The notes under the pieces: generated by a model
Seen by the model: only the letters and a program-made list of their open reading frames with translations
Databases searched by the model: none
What the model was told of the DNA's origin: nothing
Position numbers and translations under genes: made by a program
Part shown: one piece after another, positions 51,319-59,357 of the stretch
How positions within the stretch are numbered: position 1 is the first letter of the stretch
Layout: every line of letters begins with the position of its first letter
From: an uncultured Flavobacteriales bacterium
Lineage (GTDB): Bacteria; Bacteroidota; Bacteroidia; Flavobacteriales; BACL11
DNA: 64,000 nucleotides
Assembly: GCA_949372805.1 (NCBI GenBank)
Contig: CASIBH010000007.1
Location: 1 to 64,000, forward strand
Direction: 5' to 3'

Positions 51319-51627
51319 GTGTTTATACTTAGTAGTGACACAACTTATTTAGTTTTTATTTACATTGTGAATTTGATAATATCTATAGCTGTCTTCTACA
51401 TAATAGTTCTTATAACTATTAAACAATTCAAATTATTAACTCTAAAAAGTGAAAAAGGAAAGTATATCTGCCCAAAATGTAATAAAACTCTTGAACGTAT
51501 TGAAAGAGAAAGTATGGATAAAGCCCTAAATTATTTAACATTATTCTTATTCGAATGGAAGAGATATAGTTGTTTTTATTGCGGCTGGCAAGGTTCATCA
51601 TCGTGGATGTATCGCTTTAAGAAATAA
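51319..51627 (+). CDS. Small membrane protein with a zinc-ribbon-like domain
   Basis: Unrecognised protein of 102 residues starting at a GTG. One membrane segment (about 10-32) is followed by a soluble part with two Cys pairs, YICPKCNKT and CFYCGWQGSS, that look like a zinc ribbon. Its 3' end overlaps the 3' end of the convergent photolyase gene by 11 bases. The paired Cys spacing argues that it is real. Confidence 0.6.
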   Translation: MFILSSDTTYLVFIYIVNLIISIAVFYIIVLITIKQFKLLTLKSEKGKYICPKCNKTLERIERESMDKALNYLTLFLFEWKRYSCFYCGWQGSSSWMYRFKK

Positions 51628-52912
51628 ACGAAGCTTCTATTCCTTTTTTATAGCCTGACAATGCTCTTTCTCTAGCTAATTTATGATCTACTATATATGG
51701 CAAATAGTTCTCTTGATCAAAATTTGCGATCCATTTTTTTACATATTTAAAATCACTATCAAATTTCTTCTGTTGTGTAAAGGGGTTGAAAATTCTAAAA
51801 TATGGAGCGGAATCACAGCCTGTTCCCGCTGCCCATTGCCAATTACCATTATTAGAAGCTAATTCATAATCTAAAAGCTTTAATGCAAAATACTTCTCAC
51901 CCCATCTCCAATCTATTAAAAGATGTTTACACAAAAAACCAGCTGTAATCATTCTAACCCGATTATGCATGTAGCCTGTTTTATTTAGTTGCTGCATCCC
52001 AGCATCCACAATGGGGTAACCAGTCTCTCCATTACACCATTTTAAAAATTCATCTTTATTATTTCGCCATTTAATTCCATCATATTTGGATTTAAAATTG
52101 TTGTTAACTACTTTGGGGAAGTGAAATAATATCTGTGTAAAAAACTCCCTCCAGACAAGTTCAGATAAGAAAATACTATCATCTATGGAAAGATCTTTAA
52201 TAATATCTCTAACGCTTACACTTCCAAAACGAAGATGTATACCCAAATAACTTGTTCCATCAGTTGATGGAAAATCTCTAGAATCCGCATACTTATTTAA
52301 GTTATTTAAATCATAATCTTTAATATTTATTTTAGATTGAATAAATCCAAAATTTTCTATTGGCAGAAAATTATTATGATATTTTAAAAGATTGTTAAAA
52401 GATATTTTAGAAGAAGAAATCGGTTTTATTGAATTAAATTTCTGAAGCCATTTATTTTTAAAAGGAGTATATACAGTATATGGATCACCGTTATCCTTTA
52501 ATACTTCATGAGGTTCAAAAATCACGCTATCTTTAGATTGATTAAATTCTATAGAATTATTTTTAAGTAAATCAGAAATATAATTATCTCTTTTCTTAGC
52601 ATAAGGCTCATAATCTCTATTACAGCAAACAGAATTAACATTATAATCAAGAATTAATTTTTCAAAAATATTTTTTGGATCTCCTTTAAGAATTAGTAAA
52701 GAAGAACTATTTTTTTTCAAAAAAAGATCAATTTTTTTTAGCTGAGAATAAATAAAGCTTATTCGAGCATCATTTTTCGGAAGTAAGTCAGTAATATTAT
52801 TATCAAAAATAAATATTGGCAAAACATTTAGCTCTTTTGATAATACTAGATTTAATGCTGTATTATCTTCAACTCTTAAATCTCTTCTAAACCAAAATAT
52901 ATTTACTATCAT
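51617..52912 (-). CDS. phr: Deoxyribodipyrimidine photolyase / cryptochrome family protein
   Basis: FAD enzyme that repairs UV-induced pyrimidine dimers using light, 431 residues. The N-terminal antenna domain starts IFWFRRDLRVEDN. The FAD-binding domain has TSYLGIHLRFGSVSVR, ELVWREFF, WCNGETGYPIVDAGMQQL, MHNRVRMI, and the late signature NWQWAAGTGCDSAPYFRIFNP. This is the class I CPD photolyase pattern, so repair is more likely than a purely sensory cryptochrome. The ATG overlaps the stop of the MMPL exporter gene by one base, so it is the last gene of an SDR-exporter-photolyase operon. Confidence 0.94.
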   Translation of the reverse strand: MIVNIFWFRRDLRVEDNTALNLVLSKELNVLPIFIFDNNITDLLPKNDARISFIYSQLKKIDLFLKKNSSSLLILKGDPKNIFEKLILDYNVNSVCCNRDYEPYAKKRDNYISDLLKNNSIEFNQSKDSVIFEPHEVLKDNGDPYTVYTPFKNKWLQKFNSIKPISSSKISFNNLLKYHNNFLPIENFGFIQSKINIKDYDLNNLNKYADSRDFPSTDGTSYLGIHLRFGSVSVRDIIKDLSIDDSIFLSELVWREFFTQILFHFPKVVNNNFKSKYDGIKWRNNKDEFLKWCNGETGYPIVDAGMQQLNKTGYMHNRVRMITAGFLCKHLLIDWRWGEKYFALKLLDYELASNNGNWQWAAGTGCDSAPYFRIFNPFTQQKKFDSDFKYVKKWIANFDQENYLPYIVDHKLARERALSGYKKGIEASFIS

Positions 52913-54990
52913 TATAAGTACTTTTTCATTAGCTTAGGTAAATATACTAAATCGAATATGATAGCAATCACCGCCGAAATGATAGTAATAACACTAAGTT
53001 GACTAACAGATTTAAATTCTGAAAAAATTAATGGAATAAGACTAAATATAACTATGATAGTTGTCTTAATTACTGCCCGAGCTGTAATAGTAAGTGATTT
53101 ATCTAATGCCTCATCTTTAGTCATCCCTCTTTTAACGTTAAATCTATATGAGCTTAGGATATGAATTGAGTCATCAACAATCAAACCAAAAACAATTGCA
53201 AAAATAAATGCATTAGAAAGACTAAAATAAAAATTGTTTAAGCATAAAATACCTATACAAACTAAAATTGGAAAAACATTTGGAATGAGTGCAATAAAAA
53301 AATATCTAAAATTAAAATTATTTATGATTATAAAAAGTAAACCTATTGTAAGAATAGCAATTATAAGGCCATAAAGTATTTCTTTAGTTAGTTTATTACT
53401 GACTTGATCAAATAAATATCCTGCTCCACCAACACTTAAAGGAACACCCAATGATATCGCCTTCTCTTTAATCATTGTAATTTTTTCAAAACTAACTTTT
53501 GAGCCAATATCTTTCATTCTAGCTCTAATTGTATAAACATCTTTAGTTAGACTTTTAAACGTTCTTTTATCAATCAATGAAGGGTTATCAACGAAACGAC
53601 TAATAGAAAAATCTAAAACAAAACCATTAGAATCTAAGAAGTTTTCAAATTTTATAATCTTACTTATATCAACTTGCTCATCCATATTAATCTTAAATGT
53701 TAAGGGCTTAATACCTCCAAAATTTTCATTAAAGAAGTTCATTTCTTCAAATAATCTAGATTTTTTATTTACTTCATCTGTAATGTAATTGTCAACACTA
53801 ATTTTATGCACACCATATCCAGCAAAGAGAATCATTACTATAAGAATTAATCTGAAATAAAATTTATTGCTAAAGTTTACTATTGAAAATATTAAGCCGT
53901 CTAGCTTCTTGTTTAATTTAGGATTACCTTTTAGAAGATGAAAATTTAAATCTACACTTATCGCATAACTTATTAAAATAATAAATAATGAGATCAAAAT
54001 CCCAACAGTTGTAATTAGGCCAAACCTAGTAATAGGTAATACATCAGAAAAACAAAAGCTTAAAAAACCAATTGCAGTTGTAAAGGAAGTAAGAGCAACA
54101 GGAATCCCAACAATTTTAACTTTTTTTATAAAATAATCTTTTTTATTTTCAGTACTAATATTGTCCTCATTTAAAAGATGCATTAAATCAGAGACACAAA
54201 CGATAAAAATTATTGCAGGCATTATAATCATCACCAGCTCAATACCTCCATAAATAAATTGAGACATAGAAATACTAATGACAACACTAAATATTACACT
54301 TATAAGAGTGAGCAGAACAAATTTTATATTTAGAGTGAAAAACCAAAGAATTAAACAACAAAATAGTGCACTAAAAATTGTTATAAATATTAGCTCAGAA
54401 ATAACTTTTTCTTGCATATATATTTCTGAAGAAATTTGACCAGAAACAAATACATCATCTACTCCATCTAAAGCAAATGAATTTCTTATATTAGAAATAA
54501 AATATTTCCAATCCTTATCATTAAAACCATTTTTTATTTCTATTAAAAAAAATAATTTCTTAAAATCTTTAGATAGAAATTGGCTTGATTTATTTTTTAT
54601 TTTTTTGACAGACTTTTCAAAAGTTAACTGACTCTCAAGATTAAGTAAATTAATGGTATGAAAGAAAAGTCCAGTAAAAAGCAATCTAGATTCATTAAAA
54701 ACACTTTTTTCATTTTTGATTATTGAATCTTTTTTAATGATATTATAGACTGAGTCTATATCTACAAATTGATTAAAATTAATCTCATCATTGAATTCTA
54801 CGCCAATTAAAAAAAGATTTTTATCATCGAAAGATTGAGATAATTCTATTTCAATATCATCAGCATATTTTAAAATCCTTTCGGTTTCAAAAAAGATTAC
54901 AGGATTTGATATCAGGTATAATGAATAAGAGAATATTACTAATACAACAGCAAAAATGAAGTATTTAAATTTCCAAATGTAAGCTAACAA
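52912..54990 (-). CDS. MMPL/RND-superfamily exporter
   Basis: Inner-membrane protein of 692 residues with the RND plan. One helix lies near the N-terminus (about 7-28), a periplasmic domain follows (30-190), then five helices (195-350). A further helix near 380 is followed by a second periplasmic domain (400-535), and a last five helices lie at 535-690. Conserved polar motifs lie in the helices: CVSDLMHLLNE in the first bundle and IVFGLIVDDSIHILSSYRF in the second. Family members move lipids, hopanoids or other hydrophobic molecules. It sits between the SDR gene (5 bases) and photolyase (1-base overlap), an unexpected place for an exporter. Its substrate may be a membrane lipid or pigment-related compound, by inference only. 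Confidence 0.88.
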   Translation of the reverse strand: MLAYIWKFKYFIFAVVLVIFSYSLYLISNPVIFFETERILKYADDIEIELSQSFDDKNLFLIGVEFNDEINFNQFVDIDSVYNIIKKDSIIKNEKSVFNESRLLFTGLFFHTINLLNLESQLTFEKSVKKIKNKSSQFLSKDFKKLFFLIEIKNGFNDKDWKYFISNIRNSFALDGVDDVFVSGQISSEIYMQEKVISELIFITIFSALFCCLILWFFTLNIKFVLLTLISVIFSVVISISMSQFIYGGIELVMIIMPAIIFIVCVSDLMHLLNEDNISTENKKDYFIKKVKIVGIPVALTSFTTAIGFLSFCFSDVLPITRFGLITTVGILISLFIILISYAISVDLNFHLLKGNPKLNKKLDGLIFSIVNFSNKFYFRLILIVMILFAGYGVHKISVDNYITDEVNKKSRLFEEMNFFNENFGGIKPLTFKINMDEQVDISKIIKFENFLDSNGFVLDFSISRFVDNPSLIDKRTFKSLTKDVYTIRARMKDIGSKVSFEKITMIKEKAISLGVPLSVGGAGYLFDQVSNKLTKEILYGLIIAILTIGLLFIIINNFNFRYFFIALIPNVFPILVCIGILCLNNFYFSLSNAFIFAIVFGLIVDDSIHILSSYRFNVKRGMTKDEALDKSLTITARAVIKTTIIVIFSLIPLIFSEFKSVSQLSVITIISAVIAIIFDLVYLPKLMKKYL

Positions 54991-54995
54991 TTTTG

Positions 54996-55658
54996 TTAAA
55001 TCTTAAGAGTTGACATACCGCCATCAACATTCAATATTTGACCTGAAATCCAAGATGACTTATTAGAAATCAGAAAGTCAAGTGCATTTACAATATCCTC
55101 AGGAAGCCCAGTTCTTTTTAAAGGGTGTTTTTGATTCATCATCTCTTTTTGATCTTCTGTTCTAAAAAAACGTTTAGCTAATTTAGTCTCTACAAGAGAT
55201 GGTGCAATACAATTGACCCTAACTTTAGGAGCCCATTCAGCTGCTAAACTTTTTGTAAGTCCCTCAATAGCAGATTTACTAACTGAAACTGAAGAATGAA
55301 AAGGCATTCCTAAGTTTGCAGCAACAGTACTAATAAAAACTAAAGATGATTTTTCTGACAACCTAGATTCATAAAATTTTAGAATTTTCAACAAACCAAC
55401 AACATTTATCTCAAAATCTTCACGAAAGTTTTCAATTTTTAACCTCTTAAAAGGTTTTAAATTAATACTTCCGGGAAAGTATATTATTCCGTCAATATTA
55501 TCTTCGTCAATGAATGAATTTTCGTCCTGAACATTAAAATCTTGAATATCACTAAAGTCTGGATTAGAACTTAATCTAATAATATTGTAATTAACATTGT
55601 GAGTATTATAAAACTCAATTGCTATGTCGCTGCTTGCCCCTACTAAAAGTATTTTCAT
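54996..55658 (-). CDS. SDR-family protein lacking the catalytic tyrosine
   Basis: Short-chain dehydrogenase fold of 220 residues. The N-terminal nucleotide loop is VGASSDIA, which departs from TGxxxGIG. Ser110 in FISTVAA is in place of the catalytic Ser and Lys128 in VSVSKSAIEGLTKSLAAEW, but the position four before the Lys is Val124 instead of Tyr. The late part APSLVETKLAKRFF and GQILNVDGGMS is SDR-like. A subfamily of this kind occurs in photolyase clusters. Classical dehydrogenase catalysis is doubtful. It is the first gene of the operon with the exporter and photolyase. Confidence 0.86.
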   Translation of the reverse strand: MKILLVGASSDIAIEFYNTHNVNYNIIRLSSNPDFSDIQDFNVQDENSFIDEDNIDGIIYFPGSINLKPFKRLKIENFREDFEINVVGLLKILKFYESRLSEKSSLVFISTVAANLGMPFHSSVSVSKSAIEGLTKSLAAEWAPKVRVNCIAPSLVETKLAKRFFRTEDQKEMMNQKHPLKRTGLPEDIVNALDFLISNKSSWISGQILNVDGGMSTLKI

Positions 55659-55731: not shown

Positions 55732-55739
55732 CAAATATA
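55732..55739 (-). promoter_or_regulatory. Candidate -7 element of the SDR-exporter-photolyase operon
   Basis: Minus-strand TATATTTG lies 73 bases before the SDR ATG, in the 166-base region divergent from the DUF2452-like gene. The rest of that region shows nothing else recognisable. Confidence 0.42.
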
Positions 55740-55801
55740 TAACTATATTGAATAATTACTATATAATAATGAGTAAAATTAGCTTAACAAAAAAAATATC
55801 A

Positions 55802-55824: not shown

Positions 55825-56211
55825 ATGAAAAAATATCCTGATAATGTAGTTTTTAATTACGAAGAAGATTCCTTTGATGCATTTAAAAAAGACTACCCCA
55901 CAACATCATCAGCACCAAACTTTGGGGCTAGCGTAATTGACAAAAATTTGCCTTATGAGTGCAAAAATTACTTTAAGAGTCAGATTGAAGAATTAAAGGA
56001 TCAGTACAAGAAAATTCAAGAAGAATATAATTGGACAGAACTTATCTATAAATCAAAGTATAGTTTTAATCCAATAACAGGCGCTATTTATTTTCTATAT
56101 GAAACAGCAGATGAAGAAAATTTTTTAAGTATAATTGAACCAGAAAATTGGAATCAAAAATATATTGGAAGCTTTATGTTAATGTCAAATGGAAGATGGA
56201 CTAAACAATAA
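55825..56211 (+). CDS. DUF2452-like protein
   Basis: Small soluble protein of 128 residues with no signal or membrane segment. A central predicted helix (CKNYFKSQIEELKDQYKKIQ) is followed by IYKSKYSFNPITGAIYFLY and LSIIEPENWNQKYIGSFML, then a final SNGRW. This order matches DUF2452 proteins of Bacteroidota as I remember them. The function is unknown. It is divergent from the SDR-photolyase operon and its stop is immediately followed by the end of the regulator gene, so it is inside the light island. Confidence 0.68.
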   Translation: MKKYPDNVVFNYEEDSFDAFKKDYPTTSSAPNFGASVIDKNLPYECKNYFKSQIEELKDQYKKIQEEYNWTELIYKSKYSFNPITGAIYFLYETADEENFLSIIEPENWNQKYIGSFMLMSNGRWTKQ

Positions 56212-56871
56212 TTAACTTACCCAATTATCCTCCAGGTTTTTTTCTGCCCCCTCAACCATTTTTGTAGTCTGAAATAAAGATATAAAATGATTATTATCTC
56301 TGTTAAGAAATATATATGGAGCCATGATAAATAGTAGCCAAATATCTTTACTCATATTATTTTCAGCAATCTCTTTAGTTATGTCATTAATTTTAACCTC
56401 TAAAAGTGAAGAAACAAATTTTTCATGCTCGGCTACATTACTTTTAACAGACCAGATATACCCAATCTTTTCAAGAGCCGGATACATAATATTTAAATAA
56501 AACTCAAACATTCCAAACTTTTTAAAACCTAAATAAATAGTACTATCAAATAAATCACGATCATAATTAAGTGCGGCTCTTAAAACTCTTGAAATATAAA
56601 TTTGAGGATTGTTGTTTTCTTTGTCATTAAACTTATCATCAACAAGATCTTGTATTTCAACGTGAGATTTCTTGGAAATACTTGAAATTTTAATTTTTTC
56701 GCTTAAAAGAGCTTTAGTATTTATAGCACAAATCAAATCATCTTTTGAATAAACTCTAATGTTAGTATCTGTTCTTTCTGCAACTAAGAAATTATATCTT
56801 TCTTCCCAAGATCGCAACGTGATTTTATTGGTATCACTTATTTTTGATAATTGACTTATATTATAATTCAT
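56212..56871 (-). CDS. MerR-family CarH/LitR-like regulator lacking the B12-binding domain
   Basis: Transcription regulator of about 219 residues; the ATG at 56871 fits the family start (NYNISQLSKISDTNKITLRSWEERY). The MerR winged helix spans about 1-70. It is followed by a four-helix cap domain like B12-binding_2 (about 90-165) containing EKIGYIW140. CarH proteins have W-x9-E-H here. This protein has W140-x9-E150-K151, so the His is replaced. The C-terminal Rossmann domain with the DxHxxG motif that holds cobalamin in CarH is missing; only KDIWLLF, like its first strand, remains before a short unrelated tail. It may be B12-independent or a decaying gene. Confidence 0.82.
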   Translation of the reverse strand: MNYNISQLSKISDTNKITLRSWEERYNFLVAERTDTNIRVYSKDDLICAINTKALLSEKIKISSISKKSHVEIQDLVDDKFNDKENNNPQIYISRVLRAALNYDRDLFDSTIYLGFKKFGMFEFYLNIMYPALEKIGYIWSVKSNVAEHEKFVSSLLEVKINDITKEIAENNMSKDIWLLFIMAPYIFLNRDNNHFISLFQTTKMVEGAEKNLEDNWVS

Positions 56872-56943: not shown

Positions 56944-56951
56944 TATCTTTG
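56944..56951 (+). promoter_or_regulatory. Candidate -7 element of the SRPBCC operon
   Basis: TATCTTTG fits TAnnTTTG and lies 30 bases before the SRPBCC ATG. It is bracketed by two copies of ATTTTAAA (56933-56940 and 56956-56963), a possible but weak regulator site. Confidence 0.45.
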
Positions 56952-56981
56952 CATAATTTTAAATGAATTAAACTATATATA

Positions 56982-57473
56982 ATGTCAGTTAAAACTAAAA
57001 GTTATAAAAGCGGACTATACTCTATAAAATCCAAACAAAAGGTAAATGAGCCTATTGAAGAGATATGGGATTTTTTCTGTAATCCAAAAAATTTAAACTT
57101 ATTAACGCCAACAGATATGAAATTTAAAATCTTATCTGGAAGGTCTGAAGATTTTTATATTGGTAAAATAATCAGTTACAATGTTAATCCATTCAAATTT
57201 TTTAACATGAAATGGGTAACAGAAATATCATTTATAGAAAAAAACAAATACTTTATTGACGAACAAAGGTTTGGCCCCTACAACATGTGGCATCATGAGC
57301 ACCATTTTAAAAAAAATGAAGATAACTCAACTACAATTATTGATAAAGTTATTTATAAAATGCCATTTGGAATATTTGGAAAAATCGCTCATTTTCTTTT
57401 TATAAAAAAAAGATTAATTCAAATCTTTCAATTTCGTCATGAAGCCATAGACAAACTATTTCCAAAAAATTAA
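56982..57473 (+). CDS. SRPBCC-family protein (photolyase-cluster type)
   Basis: START/polyketide-cyclase-like fold of 163 residues that binds a hydrophobic ligand. The N-terminal strand YSIKSKQKVNEPIEEIWDFFCNPKNLNLLTP, written in two overlapping family blocks, is typical. GPYNMWHHEHHF and VIYKMPFGIFGKIAHFLFIKKRLIQIF in part match the subfamily common beside photolyase and CarH genes. There is no signal peptide. It is divergent from the regulator gene and followed 13 bases later by the QueD-like gene. Confidence 0.87.
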   Translation: MSVKTKSYKSGLYSIKSKQKVNEPIEEIWDFFCNPKNLNLLTPTDMKFKILSGRSEDFYIGKIISYNVNPFKFFNMKWVTEISFIEKNKYFIDEQRFGPYNMWHHEHHFKKNEDNSTTIIDKVIYKMPFGIFGKIAHFLFIKKRLIQIFQFRHEAIDKLFPKN

Positions 57474-57486
57474 AACTATATATAAA

Positions 57487-57951
57487 ATGGGTAAATTTCA
57501 ATCAAGTAAAGTTTTTGACGGGTTTTCAACTGTATTTCGTCAATGGAAAGCTGAAGATATTCATTGTCGCTTTCTACATGGCTACGCGGTATCATTTAAG
57601 ATTTATTTTGAAGGAGAACTGGATTCAAGAAATTGGGTTTGGGATTTTGGAGGTTTAAAGCGTGCTCAAACAACAATAGATGGCCTACAACCAAAAGCAT
57701 GGATGGATTATATGTTTGACCACACAGTGATTATAGCAGAGAATGATCCAGAGCTAAATTATTTTATAAAGATGGATAAATTAGGCTTAGCTCAAGTAAG
57801 AATTATTAAAGCTACAGGTGCTGAAAAATTTGCAGAATATATTTATAATAAAATAAATAGTTTTGTAATAACTGAAACGGATAATAGAGTTAGAGTAACC
57901 AAAGTTAAATTTATGGAACATGCTAAAAATGCCGCATATTACTGTGAATAA
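57487..57951 (+). CDS. 6-pyruvoyl-tetrahydropterin synthase/QueD-like protein lacking zinc histidines
   Basis: T-fold protein of 154 residues related to QueD and PTPS, which act on dihydroneopterin triphosphate. The catalytic Cys27 and His31 are in HCRFLHGY. The first zinc-ligand region, normally A-A-H, reads TVF (Phe17), and the HGH motif reads H-G-Y (Tyr33), so two of three zinc ligands are changed. NWVWDFGGLKRA and MFDHTVIIAENDPEL are otherwise family-like. A subfamily with FRQW and HGYA motifs exists and may have another role. It lies between the SRPBCC gene and msrA (12 bases) in a probable operon. Whether it makes a pterin, for example a photolyase antenna, is speculation. Confidence 0.85.
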   Translation: MGKFQSSKVFDGFSTVFRQWKAEDIHCRFLHGYAVSFKIYFEGELDSRNWVWDFGGLKRAQTTIDGLQPKAWMDYMFDHTVIIAENDPELNYFIKMDKLGLAQVRIIKATGAEKFAEYIYNKINSFVITETDNRVRVTKVKFMEHAKNAAYYCE

Positions 57952-57963
57952 TAAATTTAATTT

Positions 57964-58551
57964 ATGAATTTAATTTTAATTTTAAGTCTAATTTTAAATA
58001 TGTCAAATATAATAATTGAAGATAAAAAAGAAATTCACTTTGGAGGGGGTTGCTTCTGGTGTGTAGAGGCTGTATTTGAAGACCTTGTGGGAGTAATTCG
58101 TGTTGAAAGTGGTTTTTCTGGTGGGCAGATTAAAAACCCGTCATACGCAGAGGTTAGTAGGTCAAAAACTAATCATGCAGAAGTTTGCAAAATAATCTAT
58201 AATCCAAGTGAAGTAAGCCTAGAAGTTTTACTGGAAGTTTTTTTCGTCTCTCATGACCCTACAACATTAAATAGACAAGGTAATGATGTAGGCGCTCATT
58301 ACAGGTCAATCATCCTCTATAATAACGACACGGAAAAAAAAGTAATAAATAATTTTATTGCTAATATTAACACAGAATTATTTGATAGTAAAATTGTTAC
58401 TGAAGTAAAAGAATTTAAAGTTTTTTATGATGCTGAAAAATACCACCAGAATTATTTCAAACAAAATCAAGAACAACCCTATTGTCAATTTGTAATCTCT
58501 CCAAAAGTAACAAAAGCCAGAAATAAGCTAACAAAATACTATAAAAAGTAA
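57964..58551 (+). CDS. msrA: Peptide-methionine (S)-S-oxide reductase MsrA
   Basis: Repairs oxidised methionine in proteins. The signature GGGCFWCVEAVFE gives catalytic Cys30. SGFSGGQIKNPSYAEVSRSKTNHAE in two parts, FFVSHDPTTLNRQGNDVGAHYRS in part, and FYDAEKYHQNYF complete the family pattern. A hydrophobic N-terminal extension of about 12 residues (NLILILSLILN) could be a membrane or export signal, but a start at Met13 would give a cytosolic enzyme. Its last base overlaps the first base of the next gene. Confidence 0.94.
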   Translation: MNLILILSLILNMSNIIIEDKKEIHFGGGCFWCVEAVFEDLVGVIRVESGFSGGQIKNPSYAEVSRSKTNHAEVCKIIYNPSEVSLEVLLEVFFVSHDPTTLNRQGNDVGAHYRSIILYNNDTEKKVINNFIANINTELFDSKIVTEVKEFKVFYDAEKYHQNYFKQNQEQPYCQFVISPKVTKARNKLTKYYKK

Positions 58552-59357
58552 TGCCTGAGGGACCAGAGGTCAGAATAGTTGCAGATTTTCTTCAAAAGGA
58601 ATTAAGCAATCAAATTATAACTGATTTTAAATGCTTCTCCAAACCATATCAAATTAAATATGGAAAGCTAATTGATGAAATCAACAATTTTATCCCTTTT
58701 AATTTTTCTGAAATATTCTGTATAGGAAAAACTACTTTTATAAAAATTAATGATGATAAATATTTTTCATTTCATTTGGGAATGACAGGAAATTGGTCTA
58801 AAGTAAAAGAAAAACATAGTCATCTAAAACTAAATACTGATAAAAATAATATTATTTATTTTAATGATACTAGAAGGTTTGGGAATATCAAACTGCTAAA
58901 TAATATTGATGTTAAAACTAAGTATTTTAAAGAAGGTGATTTTTTAAATTTCAACACTTCACCTGCAAAGTACTCAGAATATTTACTTAAAAATATAAAT
59001 TCAAATATTGAGGTTTGCAAGGTTTTATTAAACCAAAAATATTTTTGTGGAGTAGGTAATTATCTAAAATCAGAAATTCTTTACCATGCTAAAATCCATC
59101 CTCATACAAAATGGAACTATTTAGTAAAAAAAGATATTTATAATTTATGTAAATACACTAAAAAAATCATACACCAAGCATATCAAAGCGGAGGAGCTGA
59201 GCTAAAGGATTTCAAAAATCCTGAAAATGATTCTAAGCTAATTTTAAATGCCTATGCTCAAACACAAGATTCTAAGGGAAATCCTATAATTAACGATATA
59301 ACAAAAGATAATAGGAGAACATATTGGAGCCCAAAGAGACAGATTATCAAAAATTAA
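58551..59357 (+). CDS. Fpg/Nei-family DNA glycosylase with a zincless finger
   Basis: Base-excision repair glycosylase/AP lyase for oxidised bases, 268 residues. The N-terminal catalytic Pro2-Glu3 is intact (MPEGPEVRIVADFL). The helix-two-turn-helix region reads FCGVGNYLKSEILYHAKIHP. The C-terminal region aligns with the zinc finger of Fpg/Nei but has no Cys: KGNPIINDITKDNRRTYW instead of the four-Cys form. This matches zincless-finger members such as those in some Bacteroidota and eukaryotes. Overlap with msrA suggests joint expression of protein and DNA repair. Its 3' end overlaps the convergent DoxX-like gene by 4 bases. Confidence 0.9.
   Translation: MPEGPEVRIVADFLQKELSNQIITDFKCFSKPYQIKYGKLIDEINNFIPFNFSEIFCIGKTTFIKINDDKYFSFHLGMTGNWSKVKEKHSHLKLNTDKNNIIYFNDTRRFGNIKLLNNIDVKTKYFKEGDFLNFNTSPAKYSEYLLKNINSNIEVCKVLLNQKYFCGVGNYLKSEILYHAKIHPHTKWNYLVKKDIYNLCKYTKKIIHQAYQSGGAELKDFKNPENDSKLILNAYAQTQDSKGNPIINDITKDNRRTYWSPKRQIIKN

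Follow-up and report, generated by a model that had tools for sequence, protein, structure and literature searches.

A short CarH/LitR-like regulator without a Rossmann domain

The 64,000-nucleotide stretch analysed here in full (the window; contig CASIBH010000007.1 of an uncultured Flavobacteriales bacterium, from a 1.17 Mb assembly that is 64% complete) encodes a short MerR regulator of the CarH/LitR type, which an earlier reading of the letters alone (the sequence-only reading) had described as seemingly unable to bind cobalamin. Its open reading frame (56212-56871, minus strand) is uninterrupted and, from the ATG at 56871, specifies 219 residues (56215..56871), followed by the stop codon at 56212-56214. 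Residues 1-75 (56647..56871, minus strand) form a MerR winged-helix DNA-binding domain with an RSWEERY recognition helix [PF13411, E 3.6e-10; predicted local distance difference test (pLDDT) about 90 or more], which is the only Pfam match in the protein. RxWExR(Y/H) is present in every relative, and the window protein carries the MerR-type domain with RxWExRY that characterizes class I CarH/LitR proteins.

The following region (residues 76-172; 56356..56646, minus strand) corresponds to the four-helix bundle that caps cobalamin in full-length proteins, as judged by hhalign against full-length relatives and by four modelled helices. Instead of the class I motif Wx9EH it has W140-x9-E150-K151 (56419..56454, minus strand; E150 at 56422-56424, K151 at 56419-56421), exactly as the sequence-only reading had it, and the 12 aligned relatives all lack the histidine as well: in the 13 aligned short forms, window protein included, the residue after W-x9-E is K, R, N or V and never H. 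The same reading took both the DNA-binding and the cap domains to be intact, which holds for the MerR domain and for the bundle as such but not for the cap signature, since PF02607 (B12-binding_2) is absent from the window protein and was detected in only one of 13 short forms (at E 0.11) vs 15 of 15 full-length relatives. By sequence, the helical bundle is retained but no longer resembles a cobalamin cap. The short form thus combines a kept four-helix bundle with the absence of the B12 Rossmann domain, as class II LitR does, though the Pfam bundle model misses it.

The rest of the protein (residues 173-219, SKDIWLLFIMAPYIFLNRDNNHFISLFQTTKMV...; 56215..56355, minus strand) is a conserved C-terminal tail lying where the Rossmann domain would be. 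In an hhalign comparison with 15 full-length proteins from the same family, residues 2-182 aligned with probability 100. The alignment ended at WLLF, the expected place of strand 1 of the Rossmann domain; beyond SKDIWLLF, residues 183-219 had no match in the Rossmann profile. Homology therefore stops at residue 182, and the Rossmann domain with the D/ExHxxG axial histidine is missing; PF02310 matched several of the full-length genes but no short one. The claim that the first strand had survived stands as far as homology reaches WLLF, but that stretch is helical rather than a strand in both AlphaFold models, at low confidence. A MAFFT alignment placed the tail histidine (NHFIS) on the axial histidine of ExHxxG; we rejected this equivalence, which had no hhalign support, the histidine being absent in relative L012. 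The tail has its own invariant columns in 13 of 13 aligned short forms (S174-W178, P185-Y186, F188-L189, R191, T202 and M205-V206), and within the window's genus its non-synonymous diversity (pN) is about as low as that of the helix-turn-helix.

AlphaFold modelled the helix-turn-helix and the first helices confidently and the end of the bundle, the part on which a structural check of the cap had been suggested, less so; the tail appeared as two low-confidence helices (block means roughly 55-72), so that its fold is not reliable, and a second prediction with full-length rows added left its confidence unchanged. The top Foldseek matches were Thermus CarH structures with low TM-scores, presumably due to a differing domain arrangement. 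Consistently with the sequence-only reading, the window protein is very probably unable to bind cobalamin in the CarH manner. In the full-length relatives themselves (L033 and others), ExHxxG is kept, but the SxT/V and GG elements that come further along in the classic B12 motif are seemingly absent, and in L028 and L029 phenylalanine replaces the tryptophan of Wx9EH; to judge from these residues, cobalamin binding by the family's own full-length proteins is not certain.

Conservation and origin of the short form

The Rossmann domain was not hidden by a frameshift or moved to another gene. The three frames past the stop codon held nothing resembling it, the convergent DUF2452 gene ending at the base that adjoins this codon, and no stand-alone small B12-binding protein was detected in the searched genomes, where the matches were long enzyme-type frames or frames cut by contig ends. 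Large B12-binding reading frames do exist in short-form genomes, so the loss in the regulator is not a loss of all B12 use; from their lengths, these frames would be enzymes such as MetH and methylmalonyl-CoA mutase.

A search of 52 genomes of the window's family located the short form in 14, which belong to five genera, at 55-97% identity: g1 (the window's genome G000, G003 and G004), g2 (G002), g6 (G017-G019, G021), g11 (G029, G030) and g14 (G033, G034, G036, G037). None was found outside the family in overlapping samples of 396 genomes of the order and 395 of the phylum. Pairwise non-synonymous divergence (dN) among short forms was 0.02-0.27 against near-saturated synonymous divergence (dS). 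In a tree with full-length relatives, the short forms made a single clade (support 100/100) that sits on a long branch; its position among full-length relatives is unsure, as the tree program flags a meeting of long branches. Three g14 genomes contain both the short and the full-length form, while in the other four genera no full-length copy was detected, even in G029, which is 98% complete. At the level of sequence, the domain loss, the conservation and the single origin of the short form are established.

A candidate operator shared across the family

In regulator upstream regions TTGTATA and TATACAA recur 25 bp apart, defining a candidate operator TTGYATA-N18-TATRCAA that lies upstream of most full-length genes and also of crtI. 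In g6, g11 and G004 it is found about 109 bp upstream of the short form, within the gap to a divergent SRPBCC gene; one locus (L039) has an N19 spacer, and the site is weakly present at L035 and at the short-form loci of g2 and g14. Its half-site TATACA contains TnnACA, the recognition element of CarH (PMC9304148), here as inverted rather than direct repeats. The sites were often paired, 63-64 bp apart, in full-length and short-form genomes alike (L051:67/130; L052:1620/1684; L053:605/669; L047:9855/9918; L046:771/834), an arrangement that hints at looping or cooperative binding.

Exact sites were far more numerous family-wide than in a reversed control, which was nearly zero, and their mean number per genome was 0.42 where neither form is present, 1.5 where only the short form is, 2.4 where only the full-length form is and 6 where both are. 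The difference between short-only genomes and those with neither form had a one-sided p of 0.024 (0.0013 without genus g1), a calculation that treats related genomes as independent and includes several incomplete "neither" genomes. The operator-bearing gene families common to short-only and full-length genomes were YceI (short-only G017 and G030; both-forms G033; full-only G027), a cupredoxin lipoprotein (G016, G020 and G021 of g6; G023 and G024 of g7), SRPBCC, and the photolyase family (short-only G021 and G017; full-only G024). Neither regulator form was detected in G016, G020 and G023, which are 58-76% complete. As a result of sequence comparison, persistence of the operator with its targets is established for at least two short-only genera.

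The window has a degenerate version, TTGCATA-N18-TATATAT (56949..56980; two mismatches), in the gap between the regulator and the divergent SRPBCC/polyketide-cyclase-like gene (56982..57473, plus strand), the same placement as in g6, g11 and G004. No other site in the window has two or fewer mismatches; chance predicts 3.9 such sites over the whole window and 0.007 in a gap as long as this one. Promoters of Bacteroidota have the -7 consensus TAnnTTTG, and a match to it, TATCTTTG (56944..56951, plus strand), overlaps the left half-site of the operator, which reaches almost to the SRPBCC ATG. Such a position would be suited to repression, like Site 2 of the repressor PmlR2 between transcription start and ATG (PMC9758184). 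The SRPBCC gene is a likely target, and its relative in G024 also bears an operator. In two species of the window's genus, a one-mismatch site lies 48-49 bp upstream of a gene for a DUF4397 lipoprotein-like product (G000:C3:15211-15242, L139:2012; G003:C6:30817-30848, L140:2018), and relatives of this gene in G017 and G020 also have operator sites. An operator-like sequence with three mismatches, ATATATAACTATATTGAATAATTACTATATAA, occurs at 55735-55766 of the window, in the gap between the SDR and DUF2452 genes.

Relation to known LitR and CarH proteins

Members of this group that lack the Rossmann domain or do not depend on B12 are already known, namely the class II-V LitR proteins, of which class II, lacking the B12 Rossmann domain, is an experimentally shown repressor (PMC9758184), and the B12-independent CarA (PMC9304148). 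The short form differs from these in lineage, tail, residue pattern and operator spacing. It shares with class II LitR (PmlR2 and PplR1-3 of Pseudomonas) a MerR domain and a four-helix bundle without a working Rossmann B12 domain, but its candidate inverted sites have N18 where the class II operator is TGTACA-N12-TGTACA, it has its own conserved tail, and it is confined to one marine Flavobacteriales family. It is apparently a separate lineage. With class I (Thermus CarH and the family's full-length proteins) it has the DNA-binding domain and the helical bundle in common and, as predicted from the sites, it uses the operator of its full-length relatives and part of their regulon, but it lacks the histidine of Wx9EH and the whole Rossmann domain, axial histidine included. 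CarA of Myxococcus xanthus likewise does without B12, is related to a B12-dependent CarH and shares its operators (a use that is predicted for the short form), but CarA retained the B12 motif and EH and lost the tryptophan, whereas in the short form only tryptophan and glutamate remain. The LitR proteins of classes III-V (Burkholderia, Vibrio, Micrococcales), with C-termini also unlike the B12 domain (PMC9758184), are other lineages. The short form was described in no paper found by our literature search, which mostly did not extend to subscription journals.

A probable cobalamin-independent repressor and the alternatives

We consider it probable that the short form is a functional, cobalamin-independent repressor of the CarH/LitR group that arose once in this marine family, where the Rossmann domain was lost and a conserved tail of about 37 residues took its place, and that still acts on the old operator. 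Its intact MerR domain would bind the operator of full-length LitR without cobalamin. At the window's SRPBCC gene, with the site overlapping the -7 element and the start region, the most likely outcome would be repression, which in sister genera would extend to YceI, cupredoxin and photolyase-like genes. Dimerization, or a surface for binding a partner, is probably what the tail provides in place of the adenosylcobalamin and Rossmann domain of CarH. More tentatively, and with the odds somewhat against it, the short form may represent a LitR class of its own, new and limited to marine Flavobacteriales, whose tail has taken over oligomer control from cobalamin and ties a photoprotection regulon to an undescribed signal or partner.

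Several observations weigh against a regulator still working on the old operator. The window's genus (G000, G003, G004) has zero exact sites, its one-mismatch sites are not clearly above control, and continued use of the operator there is weakly supported; operators in this genus have drifted, and its present regulon may be small. G018 also joins G003 in having no exact site, the relatedness of the genomes bears on the p-values given above, and several short-form genomes are incomplete, so that the label "short-only" may be wrong for some.

Those degenerate operators, together with the missing Rossmann domain, are what would speak for a decaying or misassembled CarH gene. Decay had been among the suggestions of the sequence-only reading, but it is refuted by low dN/dS and by 14 genomes in which the protein ends at the same point and has the conserved tail, and we give this explanation almost no credence. 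As that reading also proposed, the short form may sense another ligand or act constitutively. The short form could instead have arisen by duplication as a competitor or heteromeric partner of full-length LitR, surviving as a light-blind remnant in genera without the full-length copy. The three g14 genomes with both forms hold the most operators, and CarA and CarH of Myxococcus act on common operators (PMC9304148); however, in the four genera without a detected full-length copy the short form must work alone, and its long branch is not that of a recent duplicate, which makes this origin quite improbable.

Light control through a partner photoreceptor other than a LOV protein, e.g. the neighbouring cryptochrome/photolyase, is somewhat less improbable but still unlikely. 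Class II LitR offers a precedent, being controlled by light through short LOV proteins in Pseudomonas (PMC9758184); the regulator has a photolyase/cryptochrome gene nearby in the window, G003, G004 and G017; photolyase-like genes stand under the operator in G021 and G017; and the conserved tail could serve as a docking surface. Yet such a gene is not beside every short form, and cryptochrome is a candidate by proximity alone. A DNA pattern for the canonical LOV signature, which non-canonical LOV domains may escape, found none in the family's genomes and did find LOV in another family of the order; its sole match here, in G018, has CS in place of CR, and we discounted it. No BLUF was found either.

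With a cobalamin-independent repressor as the preferred reading, a photoreceptor repressor would have shed the domain that holds its chromophore while sister genera still keep its DNA targets. The intermediate states are still extant, in genomes with the full-length protein alone, with both proteins, with the short one alone, or with the short one and operators that are drifting. How a light regulon survives the loss of its light sensor can thus be tested directly, in marine bacteria that are known chiefly through environmental genomes, and the operator offers a handle on the light regulons of uncultured Flavobacteriales.

Gene neighbourhood

In agreement with the sequence-only reading, the regulator sits among genes related to light and oxidative stress. 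The convergent DUF2452 gene (55825..56211, plus strand) is conserved beside short forms and several full-length forms. Beyond it, SDR, MMPL transporter and photolyase/cryptochrome genes are tightly packed on the minus strand (51617..55658), the first two being conserved near short forms; beyond the SRPBCC gene follow PTPS-family, MsrA and Fpg-type glycosylase genes (57487..59357, plus strand), suggestive of oxidative or photodamage repair. DUF2452, SRPBCC, MsrA, Fpg-type glycosylase, SDR and MMPL transporter genes are recurrent neighbours of short forms, joined by photolyase/cryptochrome in several. The window has one MsrA-cluster gene; in several genera a tandem pair, probably MsrA and MsrB, adjoins the short regulator (L037:2134-3244, L038, L039, L041-L044).

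Clusters resembling crtI-crtB-crtZ adjoin full-length relatives at five of seven loci examined (L048, L049, L050, L052, L054). The G002 short form is still beside a crt cluster, which lies away from it in g1, g6 (G017, G019, G021) and g11 (G029). In the window's genome, crtB (79428-80156 on the same contig) begins 15.4 kb beyond the window's end, within a crtI-crtB-orf-crtZ-like cluster (L100:14055-17118; G000:C7:78055-81118) that starts 14 kb beyond it and near which no operator site with two or fewer mismatches was found. Close to this cluster, L100:5135-11290 encodes a secreted-looking protein of 2052 residues, and G003 has one too.
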